Assembly: GCF_009800925.1 (NCBI RefSeq)
Contig: NZ_WOYF01000003.1
Span: forward strand, 124,001 to 188,000
Direction: 5' to 3'
DNA length: 64,000 bases
Source of the DNA: Budvicia diplopodorum
GTDB taxonomy: Bacteria; Pseudomonadota; Gammaproteobacteria; Enterobacterales; Enterobacteriaceae
Part shown: piece by piece, positions 29,435 through 35,165 of the stretch
Layout: each line of letters starts with the position of its first letter
Position numbering within the stretch: the first letter of the stretch is position 1
The notes under the pieces: model-generated
What the model saw: the letters and a program-made list of their open reading frames with translations, nothing else
Told to the model about the DNA's origin: nothing
The model's database searches: none
Program-made: the position numbers and the translations under genes

Positions 29435-30125
29435 ATGGAATATGGGTTCCGTATGGCTAATTATTAAATTAAGCTTAAGTTTTAATTTTGAATTGATATG
29501 AAAACAACGAGCATCCCTATGTATTAAATAGAGCTGATTTACGTTAATTATAAAATTATTTTTATAAGTTAATTATATCAATGCTGTAATTTTCATGAGT
29601 CTATGGAGGCGGGTGGTAATTGTCAATGGTGTGTTTGTGATTTAACTATCGGCGCATTTATTTGGGTTTTTATTATATATTCACAATGAAAAATTCATTA
29701 TTGATAACGATGATTTTTGTTTATATCTTCTTATTTTTAGTGAGACTGTAGTTTTTAATTACATTGTTTTTGATGTGTTTATCTCGACTTTTTTATTTAT
29801 TTCTATATGTATAATCAATGTGTTGTAGTGATTTTTGTTTCATATTTGCCCTGAATTAAATAAGCTGTTATAGCACTTTATGATGGACGCTAAATTGTCA
29901 TTGATTACTTTTGATTTTATTTATTAAGATTTCTTATTTTAATTATGTGAATGTGATGTCAGAAGATTGAGGGATTTTGAGAATGAATTATCTATAAGTG
30001 AAGTGAATTTCATAACCAATATATTTATTAATGAGGATACAATTAATTAACGTTTTTATTCTTTGGATGAATATCTGGCGTATGCGGTAAAAGGATTCAT
30101 CGCATACGTCAGCTAACTGATTGAG
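29435..30125. other. AT-rich regulatory region upstream of wza
   Basis: About 690 bases of very AT-rich DNA lie between the ops element and the MerP-like gene, with no supported ORF. The wza promoter must lie here, and the length suggests several regulator sites. I did not find a convincing RcsAB box. A GC-rich 12-base inverted repeat (30075-30086 / 30101-30112) lies just downstream of the MerP-like gene. Confidence 0.5.
30075..30112 (-). terminator. hairpin downstream of the MerP-like gene
   Basis: CTGGCGTATGCG and CGCATACGTCAG pair (one G-U) around a 14-base loop starting 14 bases after the MerP-like stop codon. There is no clear T-run, so it may be a stabilising 3' hairpin or a weak terminator. 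Confidence 0.5.
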
Positions 30126-30431
30126 CTATTTATTTTCAGATGGGTTACTTTCTTGCTTCACTACTTGATTAACCGTTCCGCTATAGCCAGTTTTATCTAT
30201 TGATTTCAGCAGTTGGTTTAGGTCATAACCTTCCGGCACTATCACTTCGGCCTGTCGCGTTTTTAGCGATGCTTTCGCTTTAATCACTCCGTCGGTTTTA
30301 CGCAATGCCTGATTAATTGAGGTTACGCAGAGCGGGCATGTCATACCGTTCACATCAATAATCACTTTAACGTTTTGTGCATAAATCAGCGGAGAGAAAC
30401 AAAATAGGGTGGCAATGAGTAGCCGTTTCAT
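30126..30431 (-). CDS. MerP-like periplasmic heavy-metal-binding protein
   Basis: The 101-residue protein has a signal peptide (MKRLLIATLFCFSPLIYA) and one heavy-metal-associated (HMA) domain with the metal-binding loop GMTCPLC (Cys32, Cys35). This corresponds to GMTCAAC in MerP of mercury operons. The HMA domain ends about residue 90 and is followed by a short polar tail. Its ATG overlaps the MerT-like stop (ATGA), so the two are translationally coupled. In mer operons MerP hands Hg(II) to MerT. No merR, merA or merB is near, so the metal is not established and could be Hg, Cu or another thiophilic ion. Confidence 0.85.
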   Translation of the reverse strand: MKRLLIATLFCFSPLIYAQNVKVIIDVNGMTCPLCVTSINQALRKTDGVIKAKASLKTRQAEVIVPEGYDLNQLLKSIDKTGYSGTVNQVVKQESNPSENK

Positions 30432-30811
30432 TCAAATACCTCAAACAACCAGGGTAAGACAAAGGGGTAGAACTGGAGCATTAGTACAATGGGTACGGCC
30501 ATCCAATACAGGGTGAGCACCTGAGCTCGGCTCAGTCGACCAGTACAAAAGGGCTTTTTAGAAAAATAGAGGCGCCAGAAGCCTGAAATAATCAGGCCCA
30601 GAGAGATCGCTATCATCGGTATCTGTAGCCAGCCTAATTGCTCTATGCCGGAAAGACCGGCAGCAGATACGCCAAATACCAGATAAATCAATGGCCCGAT
30701 GCAGCACAGGCTCGACGCTGCGGCAGCGATTATTGCTGCCGCTAAGGTCGCTAAAGTGCCTTTATTACTACTCTTGAGATTGGTAGTCATAGACAAAAAC
30801 TTTAGGTTCAT
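30428..30811 (-). CDS. MerT-like membrane transport protein
   Basis: This 127-residue protein has three hydrophobic segments. The first contains the vicinal pair SSLCCIGPL (Cys36-Cys37) followed by GVSAAGLSG, the MerT hallmark that accepts metal from MerP. The cytoplasmic loop has a single cysteine (KPFC, Cys89) where MerT often has a pair. It overlaps the transglutaminase-like gene by 44 bases, or by 23 if the second ATG at 30790 is used. The start is unsure because neither ATG has a strong ribosome-binding site and coupling is likely. Function is inferred from MerT. Confidence 0.8.
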   Translation of the reverse strand: MNLKFLSMTTNLKSSNKGTLATLAAAIIAAAASSLCCIGPLIYLVFGVSAAGLSGIEQLGWLQIPMIAISLGLIISGFWRLYFSKKPFCTGRLSRAQVLTLYWMAVPIVLMLQFYPFVLPWLFEVFE

Positions 30812-31904
30812 AGTAGTTGACCGGATCGCCGTCTACTTCGGCATACGGATAGCCAAAGTTATTGATTGGCGCTTGCTCGGCATCCGGTGATAGATCAAAG
30901 TCTCGGCCGTAGTTGAAACCGACCCAGTTCATTTCCCAGTTACCAAACAGATAATCGTTAACCGCCTGAACGTTGGCGTCACTGTGCTCTTTCTTTTCGG
31001 TCAGGCGCATTTTTGTCACGTCTGCTGGATCGGCAGGTAACCAGCCATAGCCAGCCAGATAAAACTGAGCCCGGCAGTGTTGCCCGCCGCTGACGTTAGA
31101 TAGTCCCGCCGTATCGGCGCTGCCAAACGCGGTTCTAGAGTATTTGTCTAACTTGATCGATTTCCCTAAGCGTATGCCAAACATTTCACGGGCTGGAATA
31201 CCGACTGAACGGCAGAGCGCAACAAAGACTGAGTTAATGTCGGTACATTTCCCTCCCAGCTTGCCGCTTGCAAGAATAGTGGCAACGTCGCCGCTACCGC
31301 AGCCAATAACGCTATTATCGCGGAACATATTGGCGCTAACCCAGTTATAAATGAGGTGCGCCTTTTTTAACGGATCGGTTTCACTAGCAATTATTTTATC
31401 TGCGGTCTGCTTCACCAGACCGGTGGTTGGCATGTGGGTTGTCGCAAGCAGATACCGTTCTACATCGACCGGATAGCGAATTTTTTTCGGTGTTTTATAG
31501 GCTTTCAGATCACCGCTCTTTTCCGGTTCCCAATCCAGCGTTTCAATCACCATTTCTACGGTCATTTCCATTTTGCCTTTGGAATCAGGCCAGGTAGCAA
31601 ACAGCGTTTTAGCACCATAGCTGTTATCCGCCGTGATGTAGGCATCTTTATAGTTGCCGCGAAACGTTAACTTACGTAACTGCTGGAAATGGGTCTCTTC
31701 AGGCACCGGGATCCAAAGTTTAACTACGCCAGAAGAGCCTTCCGGGGCGGTGACATTATAACTCTGAACCAGCGTAAAACGGCGACGACCGTCGGTTGAG
31801 CACGTTTCCTGTGCGTGGGTGGTGGTGGTTGCGATAGCTGGCGTTATTAGACCAGCCGTCGACAGAATAGCCGCACTTTTAAGAAAGCTACGCCTTTTCA
31901 TCAT
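30768..31904 (-). CDS. Tat-exported transglutaminase-like (papain-fold) protein
   Basis: The 378-residue protein has a twin-arginine signal (MMKRRSFLKSAAIL, cut near THA-Q). Residues ~170-300 form a transglutaminase core. The predicted triad is Cys220 (GKCTDINSVF), His276 (GGQHCRAQFY) and Asp292 (WLPADPAD). Bacterial members are usually peptidases, amidases or cross-linkers; the substrate here is unknown. Three other cysteines (35, 202, 231) could suit metal or disulfide chemistry. The start at 31904 has AAGGA six bases upstream; a longer frame to 31934 has no ribosome-binding site. It heads an overlapping operon with MerT-like and MerP-like genes, a pairing I do not recognise from described systems. 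Confidence 0.8.
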   Translation of the reverse strand: MMKRRSFLKSAAILSTAGLITPAIATTTTHAQETCSTDGRRRFTLVQSYNVTAPEGSSGVVKLWIPVPEETHFQQLRKLTFRGNYKDAYITADNSYGAKTLFATWPDSKGKMEMTVEMVIETLDWEPEKSGDLKAYKTPKKIRYPVDVERYLLATTHMPTTGLVKQTADKIIASETDPLKKAHLIYNWVSANMFRDNSVIGCGSGDVATILASGKLGGKCTDINSVFVALCRSVGIPAREMFGIRLGKSIKLDKYSRTAFGSADTAGLSNVSGGQHCRAQFYLAGYGWLPADPADVTKMRLTEKKEHSDANVQAVNDYLFGNWEMNWVGFNYGRDFDLSPDAEQAPINNFGYPYAEVDGDPVNYYEPKVFVYDYQSQE

Positions 31905-32299: not shown

Positions 32300-33196
32300 A
32301 TGAATAAAGATAGAGCACTAACGCTTGAAGCGTTGAGAGTTATGGATGCCATCGATCGCCGCCGTAGCTTTGCTGCCGCTGCCGATGAGCTTGGCCGTGT
32401 TCCTTCGGCGCTCAGCTACACTATGCAAAAATTAGAAGAAGAGCTCGATGTGGTGCTTTTCGATCGCTCTGGTCACCGGACTAAATTTACCCCGGTCGGG
32501 CGCTTATTGTTGGATCGCGGGCGAGTATTACTGGAAGCGGCAGATAAGCTAACGTCGGATGCGGAAGCGCTGTCCCGCGGCTGGGAAACCCACATAACCG
32601 TGATTACCGAAGTTCTGGTACCGGCTTCCCGGCTGTTTCCGTTAGTTAACCGTTTGGCAGAAAAGTCCGATACTCAGATATCGATTATTACTGAAGTGCT
32701 TGCCGGAGCGTGGGAAAAGCTAGAGCAAGGGACCGCAGACATTGTTATTGGCCCGTCCGGTGCGTTCAGGCAGTCTTCCGAAATTAATTCCAGCCTGTTA
32801 TATAAAATTAGAAGTCTGTACGTTGCGGCACCTGACCACCCTATTCATCAGGAACAGAATCCTTTGGATGAGGCTACTCGCCTTAAATATCGCGGTATTG
32901 TGATTGCCGATACTGCACGCGAGCGCCCGATATTAACCGTGAAGGTGCTGGAAAAGCAGCGTCGGCTGACGGTAAGTTCAATGCAAGATAAACATCGGGC
33001 TTTGATTGCCGGGCTGGGGGTCGCTACGCTGCCTTCCGACCTGATTCAGGACGACCTTGCGGCGGGCCGCTTAAAAGTCATTGGTGACGATCCGGGGGCG
33101 GAAGTTGACATTATTATGGCCTGGCGGCGCGATCAGATCGGTAAAGCAAAAGCTTGGCTATTGCGGGAAATACCTAAATTACATATCGGGGCATAG
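32300..33196 (+). CDS. yhaJ: LysR-family transcriptional regulator YhaJ
   Basis: This 298-residue protein has an N-terminal winged helix-turn-helix (~6-65, LTLEALRVMDAIDRRRSFAA) and a LysR effector domain. It is collinear with E. coli YhaJ, including ALSYTMQKLEEELDV and the C-terminal AWLLREIPKLHIG. E. coli YhaJ responds to aromatic compounds such as dinitrotoluene and influences type III secretion in pathogens. The yqjG and pirin neighbours, linked to quinone and aromatic stress, match the E. coli block. Confidence 0.93.
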   Translation: MNKDRALTLEALRVMDAIDRRRSFAAAADELGRVPSALSYTMQKLEEELDVVLFDRSGHRTKFTPVGRLLLDRGRVLLEAADKLTSDAEALSRGWETHITVITEVLVPASRLFPLVNRLAEKSDTQISIITEVLAGAWEKLEQGTADIVIGPSGAFRQSSEINSSLLYKIRSLYVAAPDHPIHQEQNPLDEATRLKYRGIVIADTARERPILTVKVLEKQRRLTVSSMQDKHRALIAGLGVATLPSDLIQDDLAAGRLKVIGDDPGAEVDIIMAWRRDQIGKAKAWLLREIPKLHIGA

Positions 33197-33307
33197 CCCC
33201 CCGCCGTTAAAGCTATTACTTCCTATGCAGGCTGGAGCATATAGTAATAGGGCCTAACAATACCGACCTATCGCGAAGCCCTTCAGCTATTAACCGCGTT
33301 GAATCAA

Positions 33308-34162
33308 TTACGGGAACTGCCCGCTGTTGTAATCGTGAATCGCTTGCTGAATCTCTTCAATGGTGTTCATCACAAATGGCCCATACTGAACGACGGGTTC
33401 ATTCAGCGGTTTTCCTGCCAGTAGCATTGCTCGTCCGCCCAGAACATCGGCTTTCAGGTGAAGCATATTACCATCGGTAAGTACTGCGGTTTGGTCAAAC
33501 TGCAGGGTATGGTCGTCGACTTCAATTTCGCCTTCAAACAAAAACAGCAAGGCGTTCAGTCCGGCCGGAATTGGAATATGAATCTCCCCGTGCGGTGACA
33601 GGTCAATATCAGCAATTAACGGCTGAGTGACGTGAGCCTGAACTGGGCTAGAGTAAGTTTCGCCATCCATAGTCAGAGAACCGGCAATCAGCACTATCTG
33701 GCCGTTTTCCAGCAGTGAGATGTTTGGTAGCTCCTCAGCGGTAAAATTCTGATAGCTGGCTGGTTTCATTTTTTCTACTTTTGGCAGGTTTAGCCAGATT
33801 TGAAAGCCGCGCATTTGCCCATCAAGCTGTTGAGGCATTTCGGAGTGAATAATGCCTTTACCCGCAGTCATCCACTGAATGCCGCCGGTTTTTAATTCGC
33901 CCCGATGCCCGGCATTGTCTTCATGCAGCATGTTCCCTTCAAGCATATAGGTAATCGTTTCAAAGCCACGATGCGGATGGTCCGGGAACCCGGCGAGATA
34001 GTCTTCGGGGTTATCAGAGAAAAAAACGTCCATCATCAGGTACGGATCCATTCTCTGATCGTTAGTCTGGCCCAACGCCCGCTTTAGACTGACGCCTGCG
34101 CCGTCTTCAGTGGCCTGAGCGTGGAAGATTTGCTCGACGGTACGGTATTGTAGATTGCTCAT
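33308..34162 (-). CDS. pirin-family cupin protein
   Basis: This 284-residue bicupin has the pirin metal motif (FPDHPHRGFETITYMLEG with later HSE), giving the His-His-His-Glu metal site of the N-terminal cupin. It is followed by the pirin C-terminal domain. Some pirins are quercetinases or redox sensors. It is longer than E. coli YhaK (about 233 residues), so I do not assign that name despite the shared context. AGGA lies seven bases before the ATG at 34162. The upstream in-frame ATG at 34195 lies inside the yqjG coding end and lacks a site. Confidence 0.9.
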   Translation of the reverse strand: MSNLQYRTVEQIFHAQATEDGAGVSLKRALGQTNDQRMDPYLMMDVFFSDNPEDYLAGFPDHPHRGFETITYMLEGNMLHEDNAGHRGELKTGGIQWMTAGKGIIHSEMPQQLDGQMRGFQIWLNLPKVEKMKPASYQNFTAEELPNISLLENGQIVLIAGSLTMDGETYSSPVQAHVTQPLIADIDLSPHGEIHIPIPAGLNALLFLFEGEIEVDDHTLQFDQTAVLTDGNMLHLKADVLGGRAMLLAGKPLNEPVVQYGPFVMNTIEEIQQAIHDYNSGQFP

Positions 34163-34166
34163 ACGA

Positions 34167-35165
34167 TTATCCTTTCTGATTGGTGAAGCGGCCATGGCGA
34201 TCGTGAGGGGTATTCAGATCTTGCTCGGGTCCGATAGATATGATGCCCGTCGGATTGATCGTAGTATGACTGCAATAATAGTGATGTCGGATATGCGAGA
34301 GGTTTACCGTTTTTGCAACGCCGGGCAGTTGGTAAATATCTCTCAAAAACCCAGATAAGTTGGGGTAGTCGCTAATGCGCCGGTAGTCGCACTTAAAGTG
34401 GGTAACATACACCGGGTCGAAACGTACCAGAGTGGTCCATAGTCTGAGATCGGCTTCGCTTAACTGCTGGCCGGTTAGGTAGCGCTGGCGAGACAATATG
34501 GATTCTAGCTTATCCAATGCCTGAAAAACCTTGATGACCTCAGTTGAGTAGACTGCCTGACTGGTTGAAAAACCGGCTTTATAAACACCATTGTTAACAT
34601 CTTTATAGATCCAGCCGTTCAGGCTATCTATTTCTTCTCGTAATGCTTCAGGATAATAATCTGTCCCTTCCGCACCTAAATGGGCAAACGAGGTGTTAAA
34701 CATGCGAATGATTTCAGAGGACTCATTGCTGACAATGGTATTTTTTTGTTTATCCCACAGAACGGGAACGGTTACCCGGCCGCTGTAGCCCGGTATAGCC
34801 TTAAGATAAATTTGGTAGAGATAGTCTAGGCCGAAAAGCTCATCACCGGTTGTGGCTTCAAAGTTTGTGTCAAAAGTCCAGCCGTGTTCCAGCATTAAAG
34901 GGTGAACTACCGAGACCGAAATAACGTTTTCCAGCCCCTTCAGCTTACGCATGAGTAGCGTTCGGTGAGCCCAGGGGCAGGCCAGCGATACGTAAAGATG
35001 ATAGCGGTTGGGTTCAGCTTTGAATCCGGCATCACCGGTATTGCCTGCGCGGCCATCGGGGGTTATCCAGTGGCGAAACTGCGGTGATGTGCGTTGAAAG
35101 TGGCCGTTGCTCGATTTTGTGTCGTACCAAACGTTTTGCCAGATTCCGTTAACGAGTTGTCCCAT
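34167..35165 (-). CDS. yqjG: glutathionyl-hydroquinone reductase YqjG
   Basis: This 332-residue GST of the Xi class has its catalytic cysteine at Cys63 in SLACPWAHRT, the same position as E. coli YqjG. It reduces glutathionyl-hydroquinones to hydroquinones using GSH and so recycles quinones. A GGAGG site precedes the ATG. The pirin gene starts five bases after its stop codon, so the two are co-transcribed. Confidence 0.96.
   Translation of the reverse strand: MGQLVNGIWQNVWYDTKSSNGHFQRTSPQFRHWITPDGRAGNTGDAGFKAEPNRYHLYVSLACPWAHRTLLMRKLKGLENVISVSVVHPLMLEHGWTFDTNFEATTGDELFGLDYLYQIYLKAIPGYSGRVTVPVLWDKQKNTIVSNESSEIIRMFNTSFAHLGAEGTDYYPEALREEIDSLNGWIYKDVNNGVYKAGFSTSQAVYSTEVIKVFQALDKLESILSRQRYLTGQQLSEADLRLWTTLVRFDPVYVTHFKCDYRRISDYPNLSGFLRDIYQLPGVAKTVNLSHIRHHYYCSHTTINPTGIISIGPEQDLNTPHDRHGRFTNQKG

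Follow-up and report, generated by a model that had tools for sequence, protein, structure and literature searches.

A transglutaminase-like, MerT-like and MerP-like gene trio of Budvicia diplopodorum as a candidate selenium-supply module

The three-gene operon and its products

A 64,000-nucleotide stretch of the 3.6-Mb genome of Budvicia diplopodorum, referred to here as the window, carries on its minus strand, at positions 30126-31904, an operon of three overlapping genes that is both real and conserved. The first gene encodes an exported transglutaminase-like (TGase) protein of 378 amino acids (30768..31904), the second a MerT-like inner-membrane protein of 127 amino acids (30428..30811, with a probable start at 30790), and the third a MerP-like HMA-domain protein of 101 amino acids (30126..30431). 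Pfam assigns the proteins to Transglut_core (4.4e-23), MerT (35.4 bits against a cut-off of 32.9) and HMA (1.1e-10), with further sub-threshold matches to TAT and TusA, and bears out the gene identities given in a preliminary description of the locus. That description had read the second and third proteins as a mercuric-ion uptake pair; co-occurrence with SelD and the neighbourhoods of relatives point instead to selenium, with which the module is very likely associated, and the cut-offs of the mercury models are far missed.

The TGase protein begins with a probable Tat signal peptide, MMKRRSFLKSAA..., at 31815..31904 of the minus strand, the end being approximate and the start, to judge from relatives, lying at 31901. 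The call rests on the N-terminus MMKRRSFLK; the Pfam TAT_signal model scores 14.9 bits, below its cut-off of 22.7, NCBIfam gave weak Tat-signal matches and no other model, and the RR motif is missing from the Pasteurellaceae members. The triad proposed earlier, C220, H276 and D292, was recovered on comparison with 65 relatives (46 from trios and 19 more distant), in which C220 and H276 are kept in 65/65 and D292 in 64/65. The triad is flanked by C202 and C277, two additional cysteines likewise kept in 64/65. A second TGase copy in genome G305 (L130:8009-9109) is without C202, C277 and the triad aspartate and keeps C220 and H276. A predicted structure of the protein (mean pLDDT 84.9) matched transglutaminase and cysteine-protease structures in Foldseek, the best being 3ISR, followed by the periplasmic domain of TgpA (6G49) among others. 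By domain, residues and fold the protein thus belongs to the transglutaminase-like superfamily, with a predicted acyl-transfer or peptidase activity.

The MerT-like protein has three hydrophobic stretches, with a CC pair (C36/C37) in the first and a further cysteine (C89) between the second and third, and all three cysteines are invariant in 11 relatives; one or two more cysteines, unmapped, are present in 33 of 80 MerT-like relatives. The methionine at residue 8 is also invariant in the 11 relatives, suggesting that translation probably begins at 30790 and that the overlap with the TGase gene spans 23 bases (30768..30790, minus strand) and not the 44 bases obtained earlier by assuming a start at 30811. 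With the start in relatives taken as the start codon nearest to 28 codons before the CC pair, this overlap amounts to 29 bases in 39 loci, 23 in 28 and 26 in 13, which covers 80/80 trio loci. The overlap of 4 bases between the MerT-like and MerP-like genes (30428..30431, minus strand) stands as first reported. The MerP-like protein has a signal-like N-terminus (by inspection) and the motif MTCPLC (C32, C35), which recurs as MxCxLC in 79/79 relatives, and conserved cysteines are therefore present in all three proteins of the trio.

Conservation of the trio and its co-occurrence with SelD

Trio loci were taken as the best 80 of 153 confirmed TGase relatives in a contig scan. The MerT-like gene is the next gene after the TGase gene in 80/80 loci and the MerP-like gene follows in 79/80, the remaining contig (L079) stopping just past MerT; the preliminary description had held that its proposal would fall if the genes were rarely together in other genomes, and they stay together. 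The trio occurs in Budviciaceae, Enterobacteriaceae, Yersiniaceae, Morganellaceae, Shewanellaceae, Pasteurellaceae, Alcaligenaceae and Wohlfahrtiimonas, with Haemophilus, Citrobacter, Shewanella and Alcaligenes among the genera represented in the best 80, and is also present in a genus-mate genome (G197) and in Budvicia aquatica (L020). It was further found on a Providencia rettgeri plasmid and in a Pasteurella multocida record labelled as a plasmid, where the genes are annotated as 'transglutaminase family protein', 'mercuric transporter MerT family protein' and 'heavy-metal-associated domain-containing protein'. Two records sit oddly with their labels. One, titled Pseudomonas stutzeri (L085), carries a Pasteurellaceae-like trio with a sodC-type neighbour as in Haemophilus and Aggregatibacter and is probably mislabelled; the other, a metagenome-assembled genome labelled Acidobacteriota (L036), holds a trio TGase 66% identical to that of the window and a SelD with an in-frame TGA, reflecting either transfer or a binning error.

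SelD was searched for with TIGR00476 in the same genome samples as the TGase, and the Fisher values given here are not corrected for kinship between genomes. In the order sample, SelD is present in 64/197 genomes and in 11/11 of those with a TGase (2.3e-6), one of which (G149) has a broken TGase. In the phylum sample it is present in 129/398 genomes and in 20 of the 21 with a TGase, six of the trio type and 15 distant (8.6e-10); in one of the 20 (G459) the SelD match lies inside a 769-residue open frame. Within Pasteurellaceae, SelD is present in 124/131 genomes and in 90/90 TGase-positive ones, and all seven SelD-negative genomes, from four genera, are TGase-negative (2.0e-4). The TGase is fragmentary in five of the 90 (G149, G648, G585, G619 and G652), with SelD broken as well in G585. 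Of the 80 trio loci, 50 were also used to test named genomes; they span 29 of the 34 genus labels, with Haemophilus and Aggregatibacter types left to the Pasteurellaceae sample, and SelD is present in 49/50 of the genomes. The exception (L062), from Kluyvera, is a record of 2.8 Mb and probably incomplete; SelD is present in three other Kluyvera. The family is thus restricted to SelD-positive genomes in the sense applied to the proposed selenium transporter YedE, the exceptions being L062 and, in the phylum sample, G243.

A trade-off between the module and YedE (TIGR04112) was considered and not seen: YedE was found in 4/80 SelD-positive genomes, all of them TGase-positive and one broken, with a model that missed its E. 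coli control. Beside one trio (L003:1-902, genome G004) lies a divergent gene for a YeeE/YedE-family sulphur transporter (Pfam Sulf_transp), and G004 has no TIGR04112 match.

Distant relatives, selenium genes and neighbouring genes

Fifteen further phylum-sample genomes carry distant TGases (E 1e-61 to 1e-77), and 16 distant loci with flanks were compared against the E. coli selA, selB, selD, selU and fdo/fdh proteins. A sel gene is present in 6/16 loci, and selD is adjacent to or one gene away from the TGase gene in 5/16: it is the next gene in L123, L124 (where selU follows) and L132, and is separated by a single redoxin gene in L122 and L126. The genes selA, selB and fdo/fdhE occur in L123, L131 and L132, and a locus with fdo/fdhE and a weak selB-like match of 29% (L129) was left out of the count. 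Under a rough uniform model, the probability of finding selD beside the TGase by chance in 5/14 genomes is ~2e-9. Plasmid regions with a distant TGase hold sel genes in three of four cases. On pSymA of Sinorhizobium meliloti R28 and on a plasmid of Rhizobium sp. CC-CFT758 the TGase is found one gene past selD; in the former, selA, fdhE and fdo follow ~7 to 10 kb further on, and in the latter selB-TPR-selA-fdhE lies beyond it. On a Paracoccus ferrooxidans plasmid it lies 5 to 6 kb from both selB and selA; in the fourth region, from Alloyangia, no sel gene is annotated near the TGase. One locus, L134:7234-10101, has consecutive redoxin, TGase, MerT-like and MerP-like genes and joins the two architectures, MerT and MerP not having been matched in the other 15.

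Two features of the plasmid loci are recorded in their own right. On two rhizobial plasmids (L144:9402-9779 and L146:9331-9726) a gene for a small Gly/Ser/Thr-rich protein lies between selD and the TGase gene, encoding 125 and 131 amino acids with a signal-like N-terminus, no Pfam family and a cysteine as the very last residue. It is a possible thiol carrier or TGase substrate, and no other locus compared carried its motif. The P. ferrooxidans selenium region (L145:9078-16942) is annotated as also carrying cysteine desulfurase, TusA-family, DsrE and trxB genes alongside the TGase.

The thiol chemistry considered here for supply would equally suit detoxification, whereby the trio would clear reactive selenium from the periplasm as a resistance or disposal system. 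Resistance would be useful also in organisms without SelD, however, whereas the family is nearly restricted to SelD-positive genomes and its relatives cluster with selD, selA and selU, and disposal is the least probable of the alternatives weighed.

A phylogenetic tree was built from 36 of the 65 TGases (17 trio-type and 19 distant) and rooted at the midpoint only. Trio-type TGases form one side of a well-supported branch (100/99); opposite them, the TGases of G243 and L130 stand out as long outlying branches. Function is carried over from one type to the other on the basis of their homology and of the separate co-occurrence of each with SelD.

The use to which SelD-positive genomes put selenium was examined with profiles for selA (TIGR00474) and selU (TIGR03167), which mark the selenocysteine and selenouridine branches. 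Among 26 TGase-positive genomes, 13 have selA only, seven selU only, five both and one (G243) neither; among 24 SelD-positive control genomes lacking a TGase, the corresponding numbers are 10, eight, six and zero. The TGase family therefore tracks SelD and not one branch, which suggests that its step lies upstream of both, in acquisition, transport or reduction. This applies to the family and not to the trio, as the 11 trio-type genomes tested all have selA and the argument accordingly rests on the distant TGases.

The same data bear on the view that the module serves selenium users without transporting selenium, the TGase, together with MerP or a redoxin, assisting exported selenoenzymes (formate dehydrogenase, for example) as a thiol or folding factor in the periplasm. 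Several distant TGases adjoin fdoGHI/fdhE, a redoxin-family gene lies beside 10/16 of them, and selA is present throughout the trio-type genomes tested, all of which such a factor would explain. On the other hand, 7/26 TGase-positive genomes, all with distant-type TGases, have selU without selA and hence no standard selenocysteine pathway, yet keep the TGase, and the MerT-like membrane protein would be left without a role. A folding factor is accordingly judged unlikely.

The immediate neighbours of the trio, counted in 76 loci, form 57 clusters upstream and 43 downstream, and no cluster occurs in more than three genus labels; neighbour open reading frames were chosen by length and some are not genes. 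No cluster recurs widely, indicating that the trio is a self-contained unit, and a functional link to neighbours such as a DMSO-reductase-like gene, sodC or tor-like cytochromes was rejected on this count. An FNR box upstream of the trio was also rejected, matches with at most two mismatches occurring in 15/80 upstream regions against ~15 per shuffled set. In the window, wzc-/wza-like capsule-export genes lie on one side, separated from the trio by ~690 AT-rich bases with no open reading frame of 60 amino acids (29437-30125). On the other side (32300-35165) are a LysR gene divergent from the trio and, on the other strand, pirin and GST-like genes, the latter presumably glutathionyl-hydroquinone-reductase-like.

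Among these neighbours, sodC would fit delivery of copper or another metal to a periplasmic enzyme, for example Cu,Zn superoxide dismutase, with the SelD association a by-product of lifestyle. The gene lies downstream of the trio in eight loci (Pfam Sod_Cu in the one checked), and the MerP-like protein also matches CopZ models. However, these eight loci are confined to three genus labels, and copper delivery leaves the position of selD beside distant TGases unexplained, so that it is considered highly improbable.

Uptake of, or protection from, mercury or another soft metal, kept by selenium users to guard selenols from Hg, for instance, would account for a MerT domain above the Pfam cut-off and for the HMA domain, and Hg is known to bind selenols tightly. 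Nevertheless, the window proteins reach only 36 of 150 bits for the MerT equivalog PRK13751 and 37.4 of 92.55 bits for the MerP equivalog TIGR02052 (NCBIfam). No merR or merA was present among the five window neighbours scanned, no profile search having been aimed at either gene, and no immediate neighbour recurs in more than three genera, which makes a fixed mer partner unlikely. Moreover, a system that imports Hg and has no reductase would fill the cytoplasm with it, and the selenium link persists in TGase relatives without MerT and MerP. A mercury or soft-metal system is therefore regarded as improbable.

A candidate selenium route and its relation to known systems

On balance, the trio is best read as a selenium-supply module in which a periplasmic enzyme and a MerP-to-MerT thiol relay would feed SelD, a reading in which transport and substrate are inferred. 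Its parts differ in strength: a role in selenium supply upstream of SelD is likely, and a selenium relay through MerP and MerT is plausible. The products of the trio look exported or membrane-bound by inspection and from the three MerT stretches, placing the putative step at the envelope.

Several observations weigh against this reading. The family includes a TGase relative in a genome without SelD (G243) and an intact TGase in a genome whose SelD match has an internal TAA (G633), and fragmentary TGases accompany full-length SelD matches in G149, G648 and G619. Selenium can be used without the module: the TGase is absent from 34/124 SelD-positive Pasteurellaceae, and a search of 20,395 E. coli records for a Citrobacter trio gave no near match, though E. 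coli has SelD. E. coli selA, selB, selD, selU, fdoI, fdhE and fdhD have no match in the sequence flanking the trio in the 80 loci (67 with spans of at least 17 kb), and weak fdoG/fdoH matches of 25-34% identity in four loci look like other molybdoenzymes (one of the four was checked by Pfam). For the trio type itself, the selenium link is one of co-occurrence only. MerT/MerP-like genes lie beside only 1/16 distant TGases, with redoxin genes instead or as well in 10/16, and the trio and distant TGases fall in separate groups of the tree. All 11 trio-type genomes tested have selA (nine selA only and two both), and every TGase-positive genome with selU only is of the distant type.

With thiols, selenite forms S-Se-S adducts, selenodiglutathione being one. 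In the selenium-supply reading, selenium would enter the periplasm as selenite and form such adducts, which the TGase, through its catalytic cysteine and the two additional conserved cysteines, would process or unload, perhaps at a gamma-glutamyl bond, an action that is a guess based on the fold's acyl chemistry. The CxLC pair of MerP would then take up the selenium and pass it on to the first-span CC pair of MerT, from which it would move to the cysteine after the second span, and cellular thiols would release selenide for SelD. Hg(II) is passed through MerP and MerT by an established thiol relay, and the route would be the same thiol exchange with selenium as its cargo. The thiol-peptide metabolism that the preliminary description had offered as an alternative would include the processing of a selenium-thiol adduct, and the interpretation given there is, as a whole, partly supported. 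Whether the trio constitutes a chemically distinct class of selenium importer, in which a transglutaminase-fold enzyme processes the thiol adduct and a MerP/MerT-like cysteine-to-cysteine relay delivers to SelD, is proposed tentatively, with somewhat more doubt than confidence. If it does, selenium uptake would become open to a direct genetic test and the mercury annotation would be corrected; by extension, some 'mercury transporters' outside mer operons would be selenium carriers.

The trio was found in Haemophilus influenzae (L098), and HI1048-1050 are taken here to be this trio. The available text of PMC3877243 lists HI1048 (P44103) as a transglutaminase family protein. A sialic-acid link for 'HI1048' was set aside, as the passage concerned (PMC2836998) deals with the NanM mutarotase and does not fit a TGase, and the available passages of PMC3597751 and PMC12452194 are not relevant. 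Among the papers listed in searches of open-access literature, none describes the trio or connects this TGase with selenium, consistent with the earlier statement that no described system joins these genes. The accessible portion of PMC5322559 has a single mention of a transglutaminase-like enzyme, among the YedF entries of a STRING table. According to passages of two reviews (PMC9312934, 2022; PMC13188914, May 2026), a specific, high-affinity system for selenium transport has yet to be identified in any prokaryote.

The closest structures to the TGase, 3ISR (an uncharacterised TGase-like protein from Cytophaga) and the TgpA domain 6G49, match with Foldseek E-values of 9.5e-15 (TM 0.52 by query) and 5.1e-6 at 12-14% identity, and we know of no selenium link for either. 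Like the trio, the MerT and MerP of mer operons comprise a small membrane protein with a CC pair in its first span followed by a CxxC HMA protein. The window proteins nevertheless lie far under the NCBIfam equivalog cut-offs of this pair, and the MxCxLC motif in 79/79 relatives, the gene overlap with the TGase and the tie to SelD are particular to the trio. The window MerT-like protein has a single loop cysteine, in contrast to two in mercury MerT, presumably C76 and C82. The best NCBIfam match of the window MerP-like protein is NF041115, a UxxU metal-binding family matched by 11/11 members, and the MerT-like protein matches NF045683, a MerT/CopZ-like selenoprotein family (1.7e-7). Both families hold selenocysteine members, whereas the trio proteins have cysteine and score below the cut-offs (47.8 of 95 and 30.9 of 375 bits, respectively).

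Among proposed selenium importers, YedE was put forward from its association with SelD (PMC5322559, in the text available), the same kind of association as that described here. When selenite is limiting, FdhT and SelF of Campylobacter have an effect on formate dehydrogenase, and both have experimental support as importers, according to the accessible text of PMC11237541. YedE/FdhT (TIGR04112) and SelF (DedA family) are unrelated membrane proteins, and by Pfam no protein of the trio belongs to either family or has such a domain; the trio is a relay-like set that includes an enzyme.

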